A stretch of DNA of 46,106 nt, taken from the NCBI GenBank assembly GCA_030532685.1, contig JAUNKN010000016.1, positions 1 through 46,106 on the forward strand, written 5' to 3'. Shown piece after piece: positions 18,732-26,880 of this stretch. The notes beneath the pieces were generated by a model. The model saw only the letters and a program-made list of their open reading frames with translations. It had not been told where the DNA came from and did no database searches. Position numbers and translations under genes: made by a program. The first letter of the stretch is position 1, and each line of letters starts with the position of its first letter. Origin of the DNA: Bacteroidales bacterium. GTDB taxonomy: Bacteria; Bacteroidota; Bacteroidia; Bacteroidales; Bacteroidaceae.

Positions 18732-19511
18732 TTATTGGCCTGCGATATTTCCTCGTATACGAGCAAGAAACTGAGAGAGTTTTGTTTCGTCTTTTTGTTC
18801 AATGATCTCGATGAGAGATTTCATTTCCTCACGAATTTGGCAGAGATGAGCAGGAGTGCAGGGGTTGAATAGAATTTCCCGCAAGAGTCCTTCATCCTCT
18901 CCAAGTACTCCTCGAGCTATTTTTAAGTGTCGCTTGAAAGTTGTTCCTGGAGCATCAAGATGCTTCATTACTGCGGCAAATACAAAGGTCGAGACAAAAG
19001 GAATGGAAAGCGAATAGGCCATTGTCTCGTCATGTTCTTCAAAAGTGTACTCCTCAAGATGCAAGCCCAGACGAGCATAAATGTCGCGGAAGAAGAGTCT
19101 CCCCATGTGATCGCCTTCGCTGATGATAATCGCATTTTCGCTCGAAAGGTTGCCCAAGTGAGCAAAGGTGGGACCAAACATCGGATGGGTAGAGACGTAG
19201 GGATGCCCGCAAGAAGCATAGTATTCCTTGAAGCCTGTTTTGACCGAAGCTATGTCCGAAAGAATACATTCAGGAGATAGGTAAGGCTTTACGTGTTCAA
19301 AGGTCGAGAGAGTGTGCTTGAGCGTAACGGCATTGATGACGAGATGGGGAGAAAATGCGCGAACTTCTTCGAGCGTTGTGAAGCGCTGCGTATTGTACAT
19401 AAAGCGCAATCGTTGCGCATTAATGTCATATACTGCGGTTTCATGATCGAACGAAAGTAGATCGGCAAAAAAGGCTCCCATCTTTCCTGCTCCGAGAATG
19501 AGTATTTTCAT
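18732..19511 (-). CDS. tyrA: Prephenate dehydrogenase
   Basis: This 259-residue cytoplasmic enzyme has an N-terminal Rossmann motif GAGKMG (residues 7-12) and the prephenate dehydrogenase segment STHPMFGPT (about residues 109-117). It oxidatively decarboxylates prephenate to 4-hydroxyphenylpyruvate on the Tyr branch. It has no fused chorismate mutase; that activity is on the upstream gene 12 nt away. It is the last gene of the four-gene operon controlled by the leader at 22681-22816. Confidence 0.93.
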   Translation of the reverse strand: MKILILGAGKMGAFFADLLSFDHETAVYDINAQRLRFMYNTQRFTTLEEVRAFSPHLVINAVTLKHTLSTFEHVKPYLSPECILSDIASVKTGFKEYYASCGHPYVSTHPMFGPTFAHLGNLSSENAIIISEGDHMGRLFFRDIYARLGLHLEEYTFEEHDETMAYSLSIPFVSTFVFAAVMKHLDAPGTTFKRHLKIARGVLGEDEGLLREILFNPCTPAHLCQIREEMKSLIEIIEQKDETKLSQFLARIRGNIAGQ

Positions 19512-19523
19512 TACGTAACGACT

Positions 19524-20591
19524 TTACTTGTTCATTACTTCCGATTGTTGAGCAATGCTTTCTTCATGTATGAGTTCGAATATGTCACGGACAAATGTCG
19601 GATTCATACCACACAAGCTCCCCTGTGCACCACGCTTGTCGAGAATTTCGGTGTAACGAGCCGTTTGCACGATGGTCAAGTTGTGCTCTTTCTTGTAAGT
19701 TCCAATTTCGCGGCTTATGCGCATACGTTTGGTCAACAATTCGAGCAAGGCATTGTCGCACTCGTCAATTTGTTTACGTAAAGACACAAGGCTTTCTGTC
19801 GTTTCGGCAACTTCACGGATGGTGAGCTTTTCGAGTATGAAGTCGAGCACATCGGGAGTTATCTGTTGAGCAGCGTCGCTCCACGCCGTATCGGGAGTAC
19901 AGTGGCTTTCCACAATGAGTCCTTCATAGCCCAAGTCCATGGCTTGCTGACAGAGAGGAGCAATTAGCTCGCGGCGCCCACCGATGTGCGAGGGATCGCC
20001 AAAAATGGGAAGATTGGGAATGCGACGACGCAGTTCAATAGGAATGTGCCAAAGGGGAGGATTGCGATAAATACGTTTGTCATAGCTGGAGAAACCGCGA
20101 TGAATGACCCCAAGACGCTTGATTCCGGCTTTGTTGAGGCGTTCTAATGCTCCAATCCAAAGCTCGATATCTGGATTCACAGGGTTTTTCACCAATACGG
20201 GAATATCTACTCCAATCAGCGCATCGGCCAGATCTTGCATGGCAAAAGGATTCACAACAGTGCGAGCTCCCACCCAAAGAAGGTCCACATCGTGTTTCAA
20301 AGCAGCCTCGACATGAGCTGGTGTAGCGACTTCGGTGGCGATGAGCATGCCCAGCTCGCGCTTTACACGCTGCAACCAAACAAGTCCTTTTTCGCCAATG
20401 CCTTCAAAACCACCTGGCTTGGTGCGAGGCTTCCATATTCCTGCACGAAATATCTTGATGCCTTTCTGCGCTAAAGTTGTGGCGGTAGCCATAACTTGTT
20501 CTTCGGTTTCGGCGGAACAAGGGCCCGCAATTACAAGAGGACGTTGAGCCTCGATACCTGGTAGATTGAGAGGAAGAATATGAAGATCCAT
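19524..20591 (-). CDS. Bifunctional DAHP synthase / chorismate mutase
   Basis: The 355-residue fusion has an N-terminal 3-deoxy-7-phosphoheptulonate synthase (AroF/KdsA-like barrel; IAGPCSAE at about residues 21-28, AGIWKPRTKPGGFEG, GDPSHIGGR). A C-terminal AroQ-type chorismate mutase spans about residues 262-350 (LRKQIDECDNALLELLTKRM). It therefore runs both the first step of the shikimate pathway and chorismate to prephenate. In related enzymes the mutase domain also mediates feedback by prephenate; this is known for the family, not visible here. It lies between the aminotransferase and tyrA with gaps of 15 and 12 nt. Confidence 0.95.
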   Translation of the reverse strand: MDLHILPLNLPGIEAQRPLVIAGPCSAETEEQVMATATTLAQKGIKIFRAGIWKPRTKPGGFEGIGEKGLVWLQRVKRELGMLIATEVATPAHVEAALKHDVDLLWVGARTVVNPFAMQDLADALIGVDIPVLVKNPVNPDIELWIGALERLNKAGIKRLGVIHRGFSSYDKRIYRNPPLWHIPIELRRRIPNLPIFGDPSHIGGRRELIAPLCQQAMDLGYEGLIVESHCTPDTAWSDAAQQITPDVLDFILEKLTIREVAETTESLVSLRKQIDECDNALLELLTKRMRISREIGTYKKEHNLTIVQTARYTEILDKRGAQGSLCGMNPTFVRDIFELIHEESIAQQSEVMNK

Positions 20592-20606: not shown

Positions 20607-21791
20607 TTATTGATGAGTAAATACTTGTTGTATACGTTGTAGAGCTTGTTGGAGCTTTTCTTCTGTAGCGCAGAGAGATATACGAATATATCGTGCTCCA
20701 TTACTGCCAAATATAAAGCCTGGAGTTAGGAATACTCTTGCTTCGTGTAGCACACGCTCGGTTAGACTTTCACAATCTGGAAGCTGCTCGGGGATGCGCC
20801 CCCAAAGGAACATTCCCACTTGGGTGGGAGCGTAGGAGCAACCGAGTGTCGTCATAATGGATTCGGCCAAAGCACGACGACGGGCATAGACATTGACATT
20901 ATATTCCTCGTGCCAACTATCTTCGTTGTCGATAGCGCTTGCGGCTGCAAGTTGAATGGCGCGGAATGTTCCTGAGTCGATGTTGCTTTTTACTTTGAGA
21001 ATCCAACTACAAAAATCGGCATTGGCGATGAGCATTCCTACGCGCCACCCTGGCATATTGTGGCTTTTGGACATAGAGTTGAATTCAATACAACAATCTT
21101 TGGCTCCCTCTACCTGTAAAATACTTAGTCGTTCTTTTCCAAGAATAAAAGAGTAGGGGTTGTCATTGACAATGACGATGCCGCGCTCTTGGGCAAAACG
21201 TACCAATCGCTCATAAGTATTGCGTTGAGCCCTTGCACCTGTAGGCATATTGGGATAGTTGACCCAAAGGATTTTCACTCTACTTGTATCTAAGGCTTCA
21301 AGCTGCTCGAAATCGGGCTGCCAATCTTGTTCGGGTAGCAGGTCATAATTTACGACTTCGGCTCCAAGTAGGCGAGACAGAGAGGTATAGGTGGGATAAC
21401 CAGGGTTAGGAACAAGTACTTGGTCACCAGGATTGACCAAGGCTAAGGTGGTGTGCAAAATTCCCTCTTTTGAACCTATAAGAGGAAGCACTTCGCTTTT
21501 TGCATCGAGCTGTACGTCAAACCATCGAGCATAAAATCGAGCAATCGCTTCGCGCAGCTCCGAGGTGCCTTGTGTGGGTTGATACCCATGTGTCGTGGGC
21601 TGCTGTGCAACATTGCAGAGCGTCTCAATGGTACGTGGCGAGGGGGGGAGGTCTGGGCTTCCAATACCAAGACTGATAACGTCCTTTCCCTCGGCATTCA
21701 TCTGGGCTACTTCTTTAAGTTTGCGCGAGAAGTAGTATTCTTGTACCTGTTCGAGACGGGTAGCTGGGATTATATTTTTGGTTGTGGACAT
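20607..21791 (-). CDS. Class I aminotransferase of Phe/Tyr synthesis
   Basis: This 394-residue PLP enzyme of fold type I shows the PLP-lysine motif SMSKSHNMPGWRVG (about residues 240-253) and an Asn-Asp PLP-contact region (IVNDNPYSF). The AspC/DAT family covers aromatic, aspartate and LL-diaminopimelate aminotransferases. Its position between pheA and the DAHP synthase fusion makes transamination of phenylpyruvate and hydroxyphenylpyruvate the likely role. Substrate range cannot be fixed from sequence. Confidence 0.88.
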   Translation of the reverse strand: MSTTKNIIPATRLEQVQEYYFSRKLKEVAQMNAEGKDVISLGIGSPDLPPSPRTIETLCNVAQQPTTHGYQPTQGTSELREAIARFYARWFDVQLDAKSEVLPLIGSKEGILHTTLALVNPGDQVLVPNPGYPTYTSLSRLLGAEVVNYDLLPEQDWQPDFEQLEALDTSRVKILWVNYPNMPTGARAQRNTYERLVRFAQERGIVIVNDNPYSFILGKERLSILQVEGAKDCCIEFNSMSKSHNMPGWRVGMLIANADFCSWILKVKSNIDSGTFRAIQLAAASAIDNEDSWHEEYNVNVYARRRALAESIMTTLGCSYAPTQVGMFLWGRIPEQLPDCESLTERVLHEARVFLTPGFIFGSNGARYIRISLCATEEKLQQALQRIQQVFTHQ

Positions 21792-21819: not shown

Positions 21820-22650
21820 CTAAGGATAGGCTTGATATTCGCCGAGGATGCGTAATTGCTTGGTCAAAGGACGCACCGCATCTATACTCTGTCGATAACG
21901 AACAAAATCGTCATAAACAATATCCACATAAAATAAATATTGCCATTCTCTCCCAATGATAGGGAGCGATTGTATCTTGGTGAGGCTAATTTTGTAGAAA
22001 CTAAAAATGCTAAGTACCTGTGAAAGGGAACCTTCCTCGTGAGGAAGCGCGAAAACAATACTCGATTTGTTGGATTGACGAGTATCGCGCAGCTGATCGG
22101 CCGTCCAGGTATCGGCAAGAATTAAGAAGCGGGTAAAGTTGTGCTTGTTGTCTTCAATCGCACGCTCCAAAACTTTTAGGCCGTACAATTCGGCGGCATC
22201 GGCATGACAAATGGCAGCATGTCCTTGAAGTTGTTGGCGCGATATCATTTCGGCAGCCCCTGCGGTATCGTCGGTTTCGACCATTTTTAGGCGAGGATGC
22301 GTGGATAGATAATTGCGACATTGCATGAGAGCAACAGGGTGTGAGTGAACTTCTACGATATTGCTGATATCATCTTCGGGGAGGCACATTAGAGAGTGTT
22401 CTATATGCAATTTGTGTTCCCCCACGATGGCGGCTCCGCTGGCTCGTAAAAGCTCATAATTGTAGAGCAATGATCCTGCGATGGTGTTTTCTATAGCCAC
22501 CACACCAAGGCATTGGTTGTCAGCCTTAATAGCCGCGAAAACGTCCTCAAAGTTGCTGCACCATATCATGTCTAACTTCTCTTGCGAAAAATACTGATGG
22601 GCGGCAATATCGTGGAAGGAACCCTTAATGCCTTGTATCGCTACTTTCAT
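21820..22650 (-). CDS. pheA: Prephenate dehydratase
   Basis: This 276-residue cytoplasmic enzyme converts prephenate to phenylpyruvate. The catalytic domain starts with VAIQGIKGSFHDIAA and contains VVAIENTIAGSL (about residues 50-61) and TRFLIL (about residues 168-173), which match the TRF motif region. A C-terminal ACT domain follows (SSIVFALPHEEGSLSQVL, about residues 196-213), normally the site of Phe feedback. No chorismate mutase domain is fused. It is the first structural gene of the operon, about 30 nt behind an attenuator terminator, and its own ATG is at 22650. Confidence 0.95.
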   Translation of the reverse strand: MKVAIQGIKGSFHDIAAHQYFSQEKLDMIWCSNFEDVFAAIKADNQCLGVVAIENTIAGSLLYNYELLRASGAAIVGEHKLHIEHSLMCLPEDDISNIVEVHSHPVALMQCRNYLSTHPRLKMVETDDTAGAAEMISRQQLQGHAAICHADAAELYGLKVLERAIEDNKHNFTRFLILADTWTADQLRDTRQSNKSSIVFALPHEEGSLSQVLSIFSFYKISLTKIQSLPIIGREWQYLFYVDIVYDDFVRYRQSIDAVRPLTKQLRILGEYQAYP

Positions 22651-22680
22651 GTTGCTGCTAAGAACTTAAAAAACTACTAT

Positions 22681-22715
22681 AAAAAATATCCCGCTTCCAG
22701 GAGAGGAGCGGGATA
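22681..22715 (-). terminator. Attenuator terminator hairpin before pheA
   Basis: A perfect 9-bp GC-rich stem (22687-22695 with 22707-22715) has an 11-nt loop and is followed on the minus strand by six T (22681-22686). It lies 30 nt upstream of the pheA ATG and downstream of the promoter. It therefore cannot be the terminator of the upstream EF-G gene, which has its own at 23005-23035. Confidence 0.85.
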
Positions 22716-22732
22716 CTATTTTTGTGTTTGCA

Positions 22733-22816
22733 TTAATCACATTGGCCTACAACGTCCCGCTTCGCTTGTGGAGCAAAGTAATAATAGTAAAAGGAAGGAG
22801 CGTAGAACGTTGTCAT
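22733..22816 (-). CDS. Phe/Tyr-rich leader peptide of the pheA operon
   Basis: This is a 27-residue ORF (ATG at 22814-22816, TAA at 22733-22735), too short for routine gene callers. Residues 4-14 read FYAPSFYYYYF, so eight of eleven are Phe or Tyr, including Tyr x4 in a row. It begins about 30 nt downstream of a consensus promoter and ends 17 nt before the terminator hairpin. The peptide itself is unlikely to act; its translation would sense charged tRNA-Phe and tRNA-Tyr. The operon downstream makes exactly these two amino acids, which is strong independent support. Confidence 0.88.
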   Translation of the reverse strand: MTTFYAPSFYYYYFAPQAKRDVVGQCD

Positions 22817-22845
22817 TTGTAAGCGTGTACTAATATTTCTGCGGA

Positions 22846-22876
22846 CAAAAGTACGGCTTTCTTTTGAAAACCCAAA
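22846..22876 (-). promoter_or_regulatory. Bacteroidetes-type promoter of the pheA operon
   Basis: On the minus strand TTTG (22873-22876), a 19-nt spacer and TACTTTTG (22846-22853) are a perfect match to TTTG-N19-TAnnTTTG. The expected transcript start near 22840 gives a leader RNA of about 160 nt ending at the attenuator U tract. Confidence 0.85.
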
Positions 22877-23004
22877 GAAAATAAAAGAAAATGTGACAAG
22901 CCTCGGATTTCTTTGAGAAGAAAAACGTGTACGAACATCTGAACACTAAGGTGGAGGGATTACTTTTTTAACCATTTCAAAAGGAAAAGAGGATAGAAAA
23001 GTAA

Positions 23005-23035
23005 GGTTCGCCTCTCATAAAGAGAGAGGCGAACC
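23005..23035 (-). terminator. Terminator after the EF-G paralogue
   Basis: A perfect 12-bp stem (23005-23016 with 23024-23035) has a 7-nt loop and is followed on the minus strand by TTACTTTTC. It lies about 110 nt beyond the EF-G2 stop codon. Nothing else is recognised between here and the pheA promoter. Confidence 0.7.
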
Positions 23036-23147
23036 GAATGATAAATGTTTGAAATAGCCCCTGCACCACAGCGCTTCCTATAGGAGAAAAGAAATTATAG
23101 GGACTTTCGACCAGCAGTAGCTATTTCTTCTCATGAGCGAGGAGTCG

Positions 23148-25301
23148 TTACTCCTCTTCCTTTTGACTATGTTCGACCACAAGCTTGTTCTGAATATCGG
23201 TAGGTACAAGCTCGTAGCTGGCAAATTTCATAATAAAACTAGCACGACCTCCTGTGAGGCTGGAGAGGGTAGTAGCGTAGGTGCTCATTTCCTTCAGTGG
23301 AACCTTGGCTTGCAACTTTTCATAGCCATTTTCACTACTCATACCTACAATCATACCTCTACGGCCTTGGAGATCACTCATCACATCTCCCATCTTTTCG
23401 GCTGGTACAAATACTTCGACATCGTAAATTGGTTCGAGTATTTTAGGGCCTGCTTCGCGGAAGGCTTGTGAGAAAGCATTGCGACCTGCGAGCATAAAGG
23501 AAAGCTCGTTGCTATCTACAGGGTGCATCTTACCATCATAAACGATGACTCGAACGTCGCGGGCATAAGATCCTGTGAGAGGTCCTTGCTCCATACGACT
23601 CATCACACCTTTGAGAATAGCGGGCATGAAGCGGGTATCAATAGAACCACCCACTACGCTATTGATGAAGACAATTTTTCCACCCCATTCGAGAGAAATT
23701 TCTTCTTTGCTCTTAGTGGTAATGCGGATTTCTTGATTGCCAAATGTGAAACTTGTGGGATCAGGCATTCCTTCGAAATAGGGTTCAACGATGAGGTGTA
23801 CTTCCCCAAACTGCCCAGCACCGCCCGATTGCTTCTTGTGACGATAGTCGGCACGAGCCGCTTTAGTGATAGTTTCTCGATAGGGAATGCGAGGCTCGTA
23901 GTACTCGATTTGTATTTTATCTATGTGCTCAAGCATCCACTTTAAGGTGCGTAGGTGAAATTCTCCCTGCCCGTGCACCAAAATTTGACGCAGTTCCTTG
24001 CTCTGCTCTACAACCCATGTAGGATCCTCTTGACGTAGACGAGTGAGCGCAACCATCATCTTCTCAGTCTCAGCTTCGTTTGTTGCTCGAATGGCACGAG
24101 AAAATTTGGGATTTGGATACTTGATAAAGTTGAAGCGATGCTCGCAGTCCTTACCATTTAGTGTGTTGCCTGTACGTACATCTTTCAGTTTCACGGTGCA
24201 ACCTATGTCTCCTGCGGACAGCTGTTCTACTTTATCGCGTTGGGCTCCAGAACAAACAAACAATTGTGCCATGCGTTCTTTCGATCCTCTATCGGCATTC
24301 GTCAATTCGTCTCCCTCACGAACGATACCACTCATCACTTTGAAGTATTGCACTTCACCGATATGTGGCTCAATACCAGTCTTGAAGAAATAGATGCTTG
24401 TTGGTCCTTCTTCTGCAGGAATGACTTCTTCGCCGCGGGTATTGTGTACCTTGGGCATTTCATCAACAAAGGGTACAACATTTCCCAAGAACTCCATCAA
24501 GCGCCCTACGCCCATATCTCGTCCAGCACAAACGCTGAATACAGGGAAAATACTACGAGTAATCATACCTTTACGGATGCCTTCGCGCATTTCATCCTCA
24601 GTGAGATGTTCTGTTTCGAAAAACTTTTCCATGAGAGCTTCGTCATTCTCGGCAGCTGCCTCTACGAGAGCCTTGTGCATTTCCATAGCTCGATCGTACT
24701 CTTCTGAGGGAATGTCCTCGATGGTGGGTTCTCCTCCTTCGGCTCCCCAAGACAACTTTTTCATCAAAATCACGTCAATGAGAGCATTGAAATTAGGGCC
24801 AGCATTCAACGGATATTGTACAGGAACAACTTTTTGTCCATAAATGTTTTGCAGTTCCTCGACAATGGCTTCATAGTCGCAGTTTTCGTGGTCCAGTTGA
24901 TTGACCAAAAAAACGACGGGCTTATTCAGCTTCTCCGTGTAGCGGAAATGGTTTTGAGTACCAACTTCGTGTCCAAAACCTCCATTGATGAGGAGTACGG
25001 CTGTATCCGTCACATTGAGTGCAGTCATTGCAGCTCCAACAAAGTCGTCGGATCCAGGGCAATCAATGATATTGAGTTTTTTACCCTTCCATTCTACGTG
25101 GAAAGCCGTGGCGAATACGCTATAACCGTATTCTTGTTCTACGGGGAAATAGTCAGATACGGTGTTTTTTTGCGTGATACGACCACGGCGACCTAAGGCG
25201 CCAGCGTGGAACAGGAGGCTCTCGGTAAGAGTCGTTTTACCAGAGCCATCATTGCCAAGAAGCGCGATGTTCTTGATGTCATGGGAATTATACACTTTCA
25301 T
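23148..25301 (-). CDS. EF-G paralogue (EF-G2 type) without the catalytic His
   Basis: This 717-residue translation GTPase has EF-G domain order. The P-loop is GNDGSGKTT (residues 16-24) instead of the canonical GHIDAGKTT. The G3 motif is DCPGSDDF (residues 80-87), so Ser84 replaces the catalytic His of DTPGHVDF. G4 is NQLD (about 134-137). Domains III-V follow, with HGQGEFHL and a normal C-terminal region. This matches the Bacteroides EF-G2 group, reported to translocate without GTP hydrolysis and to be needed under nutrient limitation. It is therefore not the housekeeping fusA, which normally sits with rpsL/rpsG. It appears monocistronic with a terminator downstream. Confidence 0.9.
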   Translation of the reverse strand: MKVYNSHDIKNIALLGNDGSGKTTLTESLLFHAGALGRRGRITQKNTVSDYFPVEQEYGYSVFATAFHVEWKGKKLNIIDCPGSDDFVGAAMTALNVTDTAVLLINGGFGHEVGTQNHFRYTEKLNKPVVFLVNQLDHENCDYEAIVEELQNIYGQKVVPVQYPLNAGPNFNALIDVILMKKLSWGAEGGEPTIEDIPSEEYDRAMEMHKALVEAAAENDEALMEKFFETEHLTEDEMREGIRKGMITRSIFPVFSVCAGRDMGVGRLMEFLGNVVPFVDEMPKVHNTRGEEVIPAEEGPTSIYFFKTGIEPHIGEVQYFKVMSGIVREGDELTNADRGSKERMAQLFVCSGAQRDKVEQLSAGDIGCTVKLKDVRTGNTLNGKDCEHRFNFIKYPNPKFSRAIRATNEAETEKMMVALTRLRQEDPTWVVEQSKELRQILVHGQGEFHLRTLKWMLEHIDKIQIEYYEPRIPYRETITKAARADYRHKKQSGGAGQFGEVHLIVEPYFEGMPDPTSFTFGNQEIRITTKSKEEISLEWGGKIVFINSVVGGSIDTRFMPAILKGVMSRMEQGPLTGSYARDVRVIVYDGKMHPVDSNELSFMLAGRNAFSQAFREAGPKILEPIYDVEVFVPAEKMGDVMSDLQGRRGMIVGMSSENGYEKLQAKVPLKEMSTYATTLSSLTGGRASFIMKFASYELVPTDIQNKLVVEHSQKEEE

Positions 25302-25790: not shown

Positions 25791-25822
25791 CTTGTTGATG
25801 AGGGGAAGAATAGCTACCTTTG
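25791..25822 (+). promoter_or_regulatory. Bacteroidetes-type promoter of isochorismate synthase
   Basis: CTTG (25791-25794), a 20-nt spacer and TACCTTTG (25815-25822) match the consensus, with one mismatch in the -33 box. It overlaps the upstream in-frame ATG at 25792, which decides for the downstream start at 25846. Confidence 0.7.
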
Positions 25823-25845
25823 TAGACGAAATACTAAATAAAAAG

Positions 25846-26880
25846 ATGAGTTCCCATATCCTTTATCGTTTACCGAATGAAAAAATTGTGCATCAGCTCG
25901 ATGCGCAGGCTTCTCCGAGGCACTTGAGTCGTTATGGCGAAGTTGGAAATCACAAAGGATATGTTTTCGCTCCTTTTTCCATAGGGGAGAAAAGTCCAAT
26001 TTTATTGATTGAGGCGGACGAAGAAAGTTCTTGGATAGTTCCCACTAACTGGGCTGCACGACATATAGCTTACGCTGCTGATGAGAAAAAATCGCGCAGT
26101 AACTACGAGCGGGATTTCTCTCAATGTTTAGAGGCTTTGGGAGGTGAACAGGTGGAGAAAATAGTTCTTTCGCGTTCGTTAAGTTTACGCTTGGATAGTA
26201 TCATTGATGAAAGCGACGAGCGCAATTTCTTTATAGCCGCTTGCAATTACTATCCACAAGCCTACGTTGCTCTTATTAAAACAGAGGAAACAGGAACCTG
26301 GCTTGTTGCAACGCCCGAGGTACTTATCGAAGAGCGTGAAGGATGTTTTCACACTATGGCGCTTGCAGCTACAATGCAGGCCGATGAGGGGGAGGGACTG
26401 AGTCCAAATCTTTGGAGCGATAGCTATCGCAAGGAGCAACGTATTGTTGCAGACTACATTGACGAACAACTCCGACAATTAGGCTTGTTGCCAGCAGCTT
26501 CTGCCCTGCACTTGAAGCGAGCTGCTCATTTGGTGCATCTCTGTACCGATTTCAGTTTGCCCACTCCTCTTCCTTGTCCGTTGGGCGATGTGGTCGAGGC
26601 ACTTCATCCTACTCCTGCTGTTTGTGGATGGCCAACTACAACGGCTGCTATGTTGTTGAATCAAATAGAGGGGCACGAACGAAACTATTATGCAGGGTTC
26701 TCTGGTCCAATAGGACTTTCTGGTGGGACACATCTGTTTGTTACCTTGCGTTGTATGCAACTGATGTCCGATAGTGCTATACTTTTTGCAGGAGGAGGGC
26801 TCCTACCAACGAGTCATTTGGAAAGCGAATGGATAGAAACACAACGTAAGATGAAAACTATGCTACGTTTGCTACAGTAA
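25846..26880 (+). CDS. menF: Isochorismate synthase (menaquinone pathway)
   Basis: This 344-residue chorismate-utilising enzyme converts chorismate to isochorismate. The C-terminal two thirds carry the family signatures KIVLSRSL, KEQRIVADYI, LHPTPAVCGWP (about residues 255-265) and NYYAGFSGPIG (about residues 284-294). Bacteroidales need menaquinone, which cydAB uses, so MenF is more likely than a siderophore EntC. The remaining men genes are not in this window. The start at 25846 (MSSHILYR) is preferred because a promoter -7 box covers the longer frame. It draws on the same chorismate pool as the nearby Phe/Tyr operon. Confidence 0.88.
   Translation: MSSHILYRLPNEKIVHQLDAQASPRHLSRYGEVGNHKGYVFAPFSIGEKSPILLIEADEESSWIVPTNWAARHIAYAADEKKSRSNYERDFSQCLEALGGEQVEKIVLSRSLSLRLDSIIDESDERNFFIAACNYYPQAYVALIKTEETGTWLVATPEVLIEEREGCFHTMALAATMQADEGEGLSPNLWSDSYRKEQRIVADYIDEQLRQLGLLPAASALHLKRAAHLVHLCTDFSLPTPLPCPLGDVVEALHPTPAVCGWPTTTAAMLLNQIEGHERNYYAGFSGPIGLSGGTHLFVTLRCMQLMSDSAILFAGGGLLPTSHLESEWIETQRKMKTMLRLLQ

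Follow-up and report, generated by a model that had tools for sequence, protein, structure and literature searches.

A predicted phenylalanine and tyrosine leader-peptide attenuator before the pheA operon of a Bacteroidales bacterium, with counterparts in the class Bacteroidia

How might a Bacteroidales bacterium adjust the expression of its genes for phenylalanine and tyrosine synthesis to the supply of these amino acids? The question is raised by a short open reading frame (ORF), rich in Phe and Tyr codons and followed by a terminator, that lies upstream of pheA in a stretch of 46,106 nucleotides (contig JAUNKN010000016.1; this whole stretch is referred to here as the window). A first interpretation made from the letters of the DNA (the sequence-only reading) had proposed that this region is a complete ribosome-mediated attenuator. 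Here that proposal is examined by comparison with related loci from the genus, the order, the class and the phylum.

The pheA operon and its leader region

The operon is encoded on the minus strand in the order pheA, aminotransferase, DAHP synthase/chorismate mutase, tyrA. The pheA gene at 21820-22650 encodes prephenate dehydratase (PF00800, E=3.2e-58) and is followed by genes for a class I/II aminotransferase at 20607-21791 (PF00155), a DAHP synthase (DAHPS) fused to chorismate mutase at 19524-20591 (PF00793 and PF01817) and the prephenate dehydrogenase TyrA at 18732-19511 (PF02153, 34.5 bits). The EF-G2 gene upstream of the leader has a terminator-like hairpin of its own, with 12 pairs, at 23005-23035. 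A chorismate-binding enzyme (PF00425) is encoded divergently on the plus strand at 25792-26880, about 3 kb from the leader. The four operon genes had been thought to make only Phe and Tyr, a view that has to be revised. Two PF00793 matches were found in the genome (85.5% complete), one being the operon DAHPS and the other a higher-scoring protein that we infer to be KdsA-like; in 20 relatives there were two matches in 15, one in 3 and three in 2, and PF01474 had no match in any of these 21 genomes. At this level of completeness no DAHPS besides that of the operon was recognised in the genome, and the operon therefore supplies Trp and further chorismate products as well.

For comparison of the leader itself, a strict script was applied to 141 loci (80 from named genomes, the window and 60 from the class). 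Leader and terminator were both found in 107 of these, giving 68 distinct leaders. In the window the leader region, again on the minus strand, starts with two motifs read from the sequence, TTTG at 22873-22876 (about -33) and TACTTTTG, a TAnnTTTG element, at 22846-22853 (about -7), which are separated by a spacer of 19 nt (22876-22846). We take this pair to be the Bacteroidota promoter consensus TTTG/TAnnTTTG. Of the 68 distinct leaders, 54 have a TAnnTTTG element at most 75 nt 5' of their ATG; shuffled sequences gave a mean of 3.3 and a maximum of 9. A generic sigma-70 promoter scan of 22500-23200 gave no minus-strand site, a result that is neutral regarding a promoter of the Bacteroidota type. 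The leader ORF, which has counterparts in relatives, lies at 22733-22816 and comprises 27 codons and a stop codon; its translation is MTTFYAPSFYYYYFAPQAKRDVVGQCD. Phe or Tyr is found at residues 4, 5 and 9-14, that is at 8 of residues 4-14 (F4 Y5 ... F9 Y10 Y11 Y12 Y13 F14), and these predicted regulatory codons span 22775-22807.

Four segments of the leader RNA could form mutually exclusive helices. Segment 1, ACAACGTTC at 22805-22813, is the 5' arm of a putative protector helix and pairs with GGACGTTGT at 22749-22757 through 9 pairs, one of them G-U. Both arms were identified by eye and assessed by a class-wide swap test, and the 3' arm overlaps segment 2. Segment 2 is AGCGGGA at 22755-22761; it lies within the leader ORF, is a copy of the terminator 3' arm sequence and, on alignment pairing and the swap test, would provide the 5' strand of an antiterminator. 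Segment 3, TATCCCGCT at 22707-22715, is the 5' arm of the terminator and is common to the antiterminator, an assignment based on sequence, folding and relatives. Segment 4, the terminator 3' arm AGCGGGATA at 22687-22695, was assigned from sequence and folding, with its core pairs kept in relatives, and is followed by the U-run TTTTTT at 22681-22686. The distance from the end of the terminator to the pheA ATG at 22650 is 30 nt. Every coordinate that the sequence-only reading had given for promoter, leader ORF, antiterminator segment and terminator was found to be correct. Its protector pairing was likewise retained, but an apical part of this helix had been missed, in which CTTTGC at the end of the run (22773-22778, from RNAalifold) pairs with GCGAAG at 22760-22765 (from RNAalifold and covariation).

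These features lead us to read the window element as a ribosome-mediated transcription attenuator by which Phe and Tyr supply would be sensed together, with a probability of roughly nine in ten. The reading is built on sequence and comparison, which show a leader ORF with its aromatic run, a promoter box, a terminator, mutually exclusive helices and a codon composition that depends on operon content. The mechanism is very probably classical ribosome-mediated attenuation, a starvation sensor of the textbook type; ribosome stalling, readthrough and a response to amino acids are inferred, as is the point at which transcription starts. Transcription would start near 22840 and a ribosome would translate the leader. 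Where charged tRNA-Phe or tRNA-Tyr is scarce, the ribosome would stall in the FY....FYYYYF run and mask the protector hairpin on its 5' side, leaving AGCGGGA free to capture TATCCCGCT as it exits from RNA polymerase; no terminator would form and the operon would be transcribed. Where both tRNAs are charged, the ribosome would reach the stop codon and cover or release segment 2, allowing the terminator to form. Where there is no translation, the protector hairpin would sequester segment 2 and the terminator would again form. In either of the latter cases transcription would end about 30 nt before pheA.

The spacing and predicted folding of the 68 leaders are in keeping with such a scheme. Segment 2 starts 3-20 nt past the last aromatic codon, with modes at 11 and 12 (13 in the window), and the footprint of a stalled ribosome ends at about the start of segment 2. 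With a ribosome placed on the run and the polymerase just past segment 3, the best fold contains the antiterminator in 67/68 leaders. With no ribosome, the best fold contains the terminator in 64/68, and in all 68 the region of segment 2 pairs with sequence on the leader side. Once segment 4 has been made and with the ribosome still stalled, the terminator is present in the best fold of 50/68 leaders, that of the window included, and the antiterminator in 20/68. The calculated energies for the window are -13.1 kcal/mol up to segment 3 and -25.6 kcal/mol with the terminator. The terminator is thus the more stable fold even with a stalled ribosome, and readthrough would therefore require kinetic trapping. 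The leader run, intrinsic terminator, antiterminator with a shared arm, protector helix and geometry of a trp/phe-type attenuator were all found.

Recurrence of the leader and conservation of its pairing

The sequence-only reading had proposed to look for conserved Phe/Tyr codon runs and covarying stems upstream of pheA in related Porphyromonadaceae/Bacteroidales. The family name was mistaken, the nearest named relatives being of Alloprevotella/Prevotella type; the conserved run and the covarying stems were found. Named genomes were scanned for pheA and the best 80 loci kept, with Alloprevotella the nearest. In 75 of these best 80 loci pheA is preceded by a short ORF in which 6 or more of 11 residues are Phe/Tyr, and in 72 of the 75 a terminator was also found by script. 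A leader was seen, for example, in L033, the locus of Phocaeicola vulgatus ATCC 8482. As for the other five, the run is one base short in L002, the contig ends inside the leader in L013, a weaker run of 5 aromatic residues is present in L026, and no leader was found in L020 and L074. L002 is the closest named relative and has the same sequence over the leader region as L204. As its run is one base short, the reading frame leaves segment 2, and either a sequencing error or a decaying leader may account for this frame slip.

As a control for chance, short ATG ORFs were collected from both strands of the window and the 80 relatives (1,123,594 bases). The threshold of 7 or more aromatic residues in 11 was passed by 77. 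A script placed 64 of them at a pheA leader, 11 more were assigned by hand to this leader at loci whose contig ends closer by, and the remaining 2 lay elsewhere. Within the genus, pheA was found in 50/58 genomes, and 29 loci from the 49 other members with pheA were examined, in part repeating the named loci. These 29 comprised 24 leaders with at least 7 aromatic residues, one with 5, two that were frame-shifted or cut, and two loci (L217 and L221, the latter a repeat of L020) in which no leader was found. With a covariance model built on the leader, matches were obtained in 46/61 relatives at E values up to 1, and the window scored 98.4 bits. Weak second matches of model R1 in relatives (L280, L282, L283, L289, L290, L292 and L293), found without operon genes, were treated as chance. 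Judged by these counts, the occurrence of the leader before pheA is not due to chance.

The leader is widespread in the class. In a sample of the class, pheA was found in 64/247 genomes, and a tally was made of the 63 other than the genome of the window, a leader being scored where an ORF with an ATG start had at least 5 aromatic residues in 11. A leader was present at 43/46 pheA loci linked to DAHPS and at 1/17 unlinked loci (Fisher p=4e-11). The 1 unlinked locus that scored, L178, is truncated by the end of its contig, and when starts other than ATG were allowed one more unlinked locus passed (L199, 5 aromatic residues). At the linked loci L143, L197 and L198 a leader was not found. An initial view that the system is absent from class loci without DAHPS beside pheA was corrected when leaders were found at DAHPS in four such genomes: in G095 and G127 a DAHPS gene on the same strand precedes pheA and bears the leader, and in G024 and G167 the leader lies at a separate DAHPS operon elsewhere. 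No leader was found at DAHPS in the 8 f13 genomes, in G021 or in G242, and the unlinked genomes G164 and G136 are cut by a contig end. In the other classes of the phylum, none of 28 loci (28 of 95 pheA genomes were examined) had an ORF with at least 5 aromatic residues. L331, which has DAHPS behind pheA, showed no convincing leader. At several loci (L186, L191, L281, L285, L309, L321, L323, L333 and L383) the operon is preceded by a tandem pair of aromatic leaders, and behind each leader comes a terminator-like hairpin; the pairs of L186 and L191 were recognised by eye. From their sequence these may be read as two attenuators in series.

Conservation of pairing was assessed by a swap test, in which the 5' arm of each leader was paired with its own 3' arm and with those of other species (2000 permutations, with relatedness retained). 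For the 68 distinct leaders the antiterminator arms gave z=14.0 and the protector arms z=5.2 or 5.6, depending on the stretch used, with 0/2000 permutations as good in each case. Two control regions in the same leaders gave z=0.1 (upstream sequence) and z=1.9 (aromatic run), and these controls handle relatedness only in part. The terminator gave z=18.9, a figure that is biased because the terminator was chosen by its pairing. Within the Bacteroidales set (n=41) the values were 5.8 for the antiterminator and 3.7-4.2 for the protector, with z=2.5 (15/2000) for the aromatic-run control; within the class sample (n=27) they were 10.3 and 3.0-3.2, with controls at 0.2 and 0.3. The cores of different leaders can be dissimilar and still complementary, as in AGGATTGT/ACAATCCT (L152), TTGAGACTTT/AAAGTCTCGA (L190) and GAGAACT/AGTTCTC (L188). 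An early test of the protector with shuffled arms was weak (27/73 loci at 10 or fewer of 200) and was superseded by the swap test.

An alignment (A1) of the distinct leaders of the Bacteroidales (40 of 41, without L038) gave a similar picture. RNAalifold predicted the terminator and, between the end of the run and segment 2, the apical hairpin CUUURC/GYGAAG, in which 92.5% of cells are paired and whose covariation score exceeds that of 500/500 shuffles. Seven core pairs of the terminator have 96.4% of cells paired, against 29-60% in slid controls. For the antiterminator 93.9% of cells are paired, against 39-51% in slid controls, and both sides have changed in only one of its seven pairs. With promoter box and geometry, and with the composition described below, the run, the terminator and the covarying exclusive helices of the proposed complete leader-peptide attenuator hold across relatives.

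These results also bear on the idea that the ORF encodes a functional small peptide, perhaps a membrane peptide, and that the terminator merely sets the ratio of peptide mRNA to operon mRNA. The ORF is indeed hydrophobic and recurs over a class, as such a peptide would. Outside the aromatic run, however, the peptides of the class are unlike one another, the end of the leader stop codon may lie up to 4 nt short of the start of segment 2 or as much as 39 nt beyond it, covariation at the RNA level links segments 2 and 3, and the identity of the aromatic residues tracks the products of the downstream genes. We regard a functional peptide as very improbable and continue with the attenuator reading.

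Codon composition and operon content

Selection on the leader appears to act at the level of codons. In the 68 distinct leaders, F, Y or W accounts for 375/408 residues over the six final codons of the run, the last of which is aromatic by definition, and within the run codons the first positions are nearly fixed and the second and third variable. This constraint is relevant to the suggestion that the leader is an attenuator without translation, in the form of a T-box, a riboswitch or a terminator controlled by a protein, and that the ORF is incidental. The window leader RNA is structured (z-score of its fold -3.18, with 1/200 shuffles equally stable) and could in principle bind something else, but no Rfam family reaches its gathering score in the window, and the codon-level constraint is accompanied by a composition that tracks gene content. 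Attenuation without translation is thus extremely improbable in our view.

The run residues of the 68 distinct leaders comprise 281 F, 264 Y and 12 W, and F and Y are both present in 68/68. The sequence-only reading had called joint sensing of two amino acids by one leader unusual; within this group the combination is the rule. A survey of the order provided cases in which the operon is divided. Of 198 genomes, 80 yielded pheA and 95 tyrA; only split sites, sites with tyrA alone and a few more were fetched, so that the survey gives no presence count. The split genomes included nine pheA sites with no other operon gene behind. The stretch checked was 1.6-2.0 kb long, except in L306, a locus cut by its contig end, where it was 0.8 kb. 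Five of the nine sites are without a leader and four have one. The four leaders, from four families, are MTRFFTHFFFFFTQQ, MYFDFVFGFLFCFPKS, MITINNSFFFFFFRSDPEKGL and MRRNSFRFFFFFAFFFCNGRNGVSYLY. Their densest 11 residues hold 27 F and 1 Y, with a mean F/(F+Y) of 0.96. The mean was 0.52 for 85 leaders of joint operons (the 68 distinct leaders and 17 typed ones, with L307, L330, L331 and L281 unused) and 0.51 for the subset of 65 in which DAHPS was verified (64/67 fetched loci and the window). Leaders of tyrA/DAHPS operons with pheA elsewhere in the genome (10 leaders, 9 genomes) had a mean of 0.46, and those from genomes in which no pheA was found (10 leaders, 7 genomes, 79-99% complete) had a mean of 0.20, with 16 F and 53 Y.

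These groups were compared by permutation, with relatedness ignored and with candidates that have weak terminators or lie far from the operon left out. As large a difference was reached in 0/20000 permutations for lone pheA against joint operons, in 0/20000 for joint operons against all operons lacking pheA, and in 17/20000 for pheA elsewhere against no pheA. Joint operons and tyrA/DAHPS operons with pheA elsewhere did not differ significantly (1614/20000). On this compositional evidence the leader codons follow the products of the downstream genes.

The same figures speak to the possibility that the leader responds chiefly to a single amino acid, Phe or Tyr, the codons for the other being filler. 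F and Y replace one another freely at individual positions of the run, and selection may therefore act on total aromatic content alone. Against this, the two residues occur together, close to 1:1, in every joint-operon leader among the 68, almost only F is found before a lone pheA, and mainly Y where pheA is lacking. A single-amino-acid sensor thus seems unlikely, and joint sensing of Phe and Tyr remains the preferred reading. Two leaders, L321 (genome G464) and L327 (genome G584), have a run without any Phe codon before tyrA/DAHPS, and prephenate dehydratase was not found in these two genomes. They are perhaps Phe auxotrophs whose leader has lost Phe sensing.

Trp codons are also found. W occurs in 1/41 distinct leaders of the named set and the window and in 11/27 of the class sample, and the order survey added Trp codons in several further families, so that an earlier supposition of an order without any Trp codons had to be given up. 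In more distant leaders (L142, L148, L149, L153, L156, L170, L174, L176, L182, L190 and others) a Trp codon often stands amid Phe and Tyr codons, a pattern that would suit the sensing of all three aromatic amino acids. Since the operon also feeds Trp, a Trp codon would be a reasonable addition.

Relation to known systems and wider meaning

The Rfam search proposed with the sequence-only reading was carried out with the window, and no family, T-boxes and other riboswitches included, reached its gathering score; in the leaders of 10 relatives there was again no match at gathering score, tRNAs outside the leader being the only ones. In a permissive search Phe_leader, Thr_leader and Trp_leader appeared, all far below threshold. 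The leader of enterobacterial pheA (Phe_leader, RF01859) resembles that of the window in having a peptide rich in Phe codons and an antiterminator and terminator before the prephenate dehydratase gene. It scores 16.0 bits against a gathering score of 55, and differs in phylum, promoter and operon; we know of no Tyr sensing by it. The sensing of several amino acids of one operon by one leader has precedents in the enterobacterial ilv (Ile, Leu and Val) and thr (Thr and Ile) leaders. From these the window leader differs in the aromatic amino acids that it is predicted to sense and in its phylum, and Thr_leader reaches 20.3 bits against a gathering score of 55.

Within the Bacteroidota a comparable family is Bacteroid-trp (RF01692), likewise a cis element of this phylum but found before trp genes and differing from the window leader in sequence and amino acid. 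It has no match in the window or its genome. Matches were found in 3/31 genomes, one of them over the cut-off. In two of the three (L201, above the cut-off, and L202, just below it) a short ORF with WWW is followed by a terminator-like hairpin, and the gene behind the L201 element is presumably trpB, as which it reads. The WWW ORF and hairpin make Bacteroid-trp look like a Trp leader-peptide attenuator. In the available part of one paper this element is listed as probably cis-regulatory and not a switch (PMC2864571).

No description of a Phe/Tyr leader in Bacteroidota was found in the open-licence literature, in agreement with the sequence-only reading, which knew of no version in Bacteroidales; that statement has to be qualified by work on Flavobacteriaceae. 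In the portion available, clues for leader-peptide attenuation before amino-acid operons were given for Flavobacterium psychrophilum, together with a conserved and unexplained transcribed structured 5' element, without Rfam match, before pheA in Flavobacteriaceae (PMC9723704). In that portion pheA is not tied to a Phe/Tyr leader and the element is confined to Flavobacteriaceae, unlike the window leader; the two are nevertheless probably the same thing. Leader-like small ORFs have been described in B. thetaiotaomicron, pheA not being among those in the text available (PMC7366714). In 2010, according to the accessible text, leader-peptide systems were known to the authors of one study from Proteobacteria and Actinobacteria only, to which they added Firmicutes (PMC2965389), and a survey by Lopatovskaya (2010) is cited in the available part of PMC4833913. 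As far as these searches show, what would be new here is the identity of the leader, its reach, the joint sensing of Phe and Tyr (and Trp) and the re-tuning in split operons.

Taken over the class Bacteroidia, the leaders are likely to represent an ancient and modular family of aromatic attenuators whose codons have been re-tuned to the downstream genes and which in places has been duplicated in tandem. Re-tuning is read here as Phe before a lone pheA, mainly Tyr without pheA, Phe and Tyr in joint operons, and Phe, Tyr and Trp in many distant lineages. Such a family would provide a concrete and widely shared mechanism for the control of aromatic amino-acid synthesis in one major group of bacteria of gut and environment, and the window leader likely explains the pheA 5' element of Flavobacteriaceae, as far as the available part of its description goes (PMC9723704). 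The leaders of split operons would be ready-made Phe-only, Tyr-rich and joint sensors for the study of codon-specific stalling. If this view of the family is true, it would imply tight coupling of transcription and translation across a phylum in which attenuation of this kind is hardly documented. A working leader-peptide attenuator needs the leading ribosome to be abreast of RNA polymerase, and coupling in Bacteroidota would therefore be directly testable.
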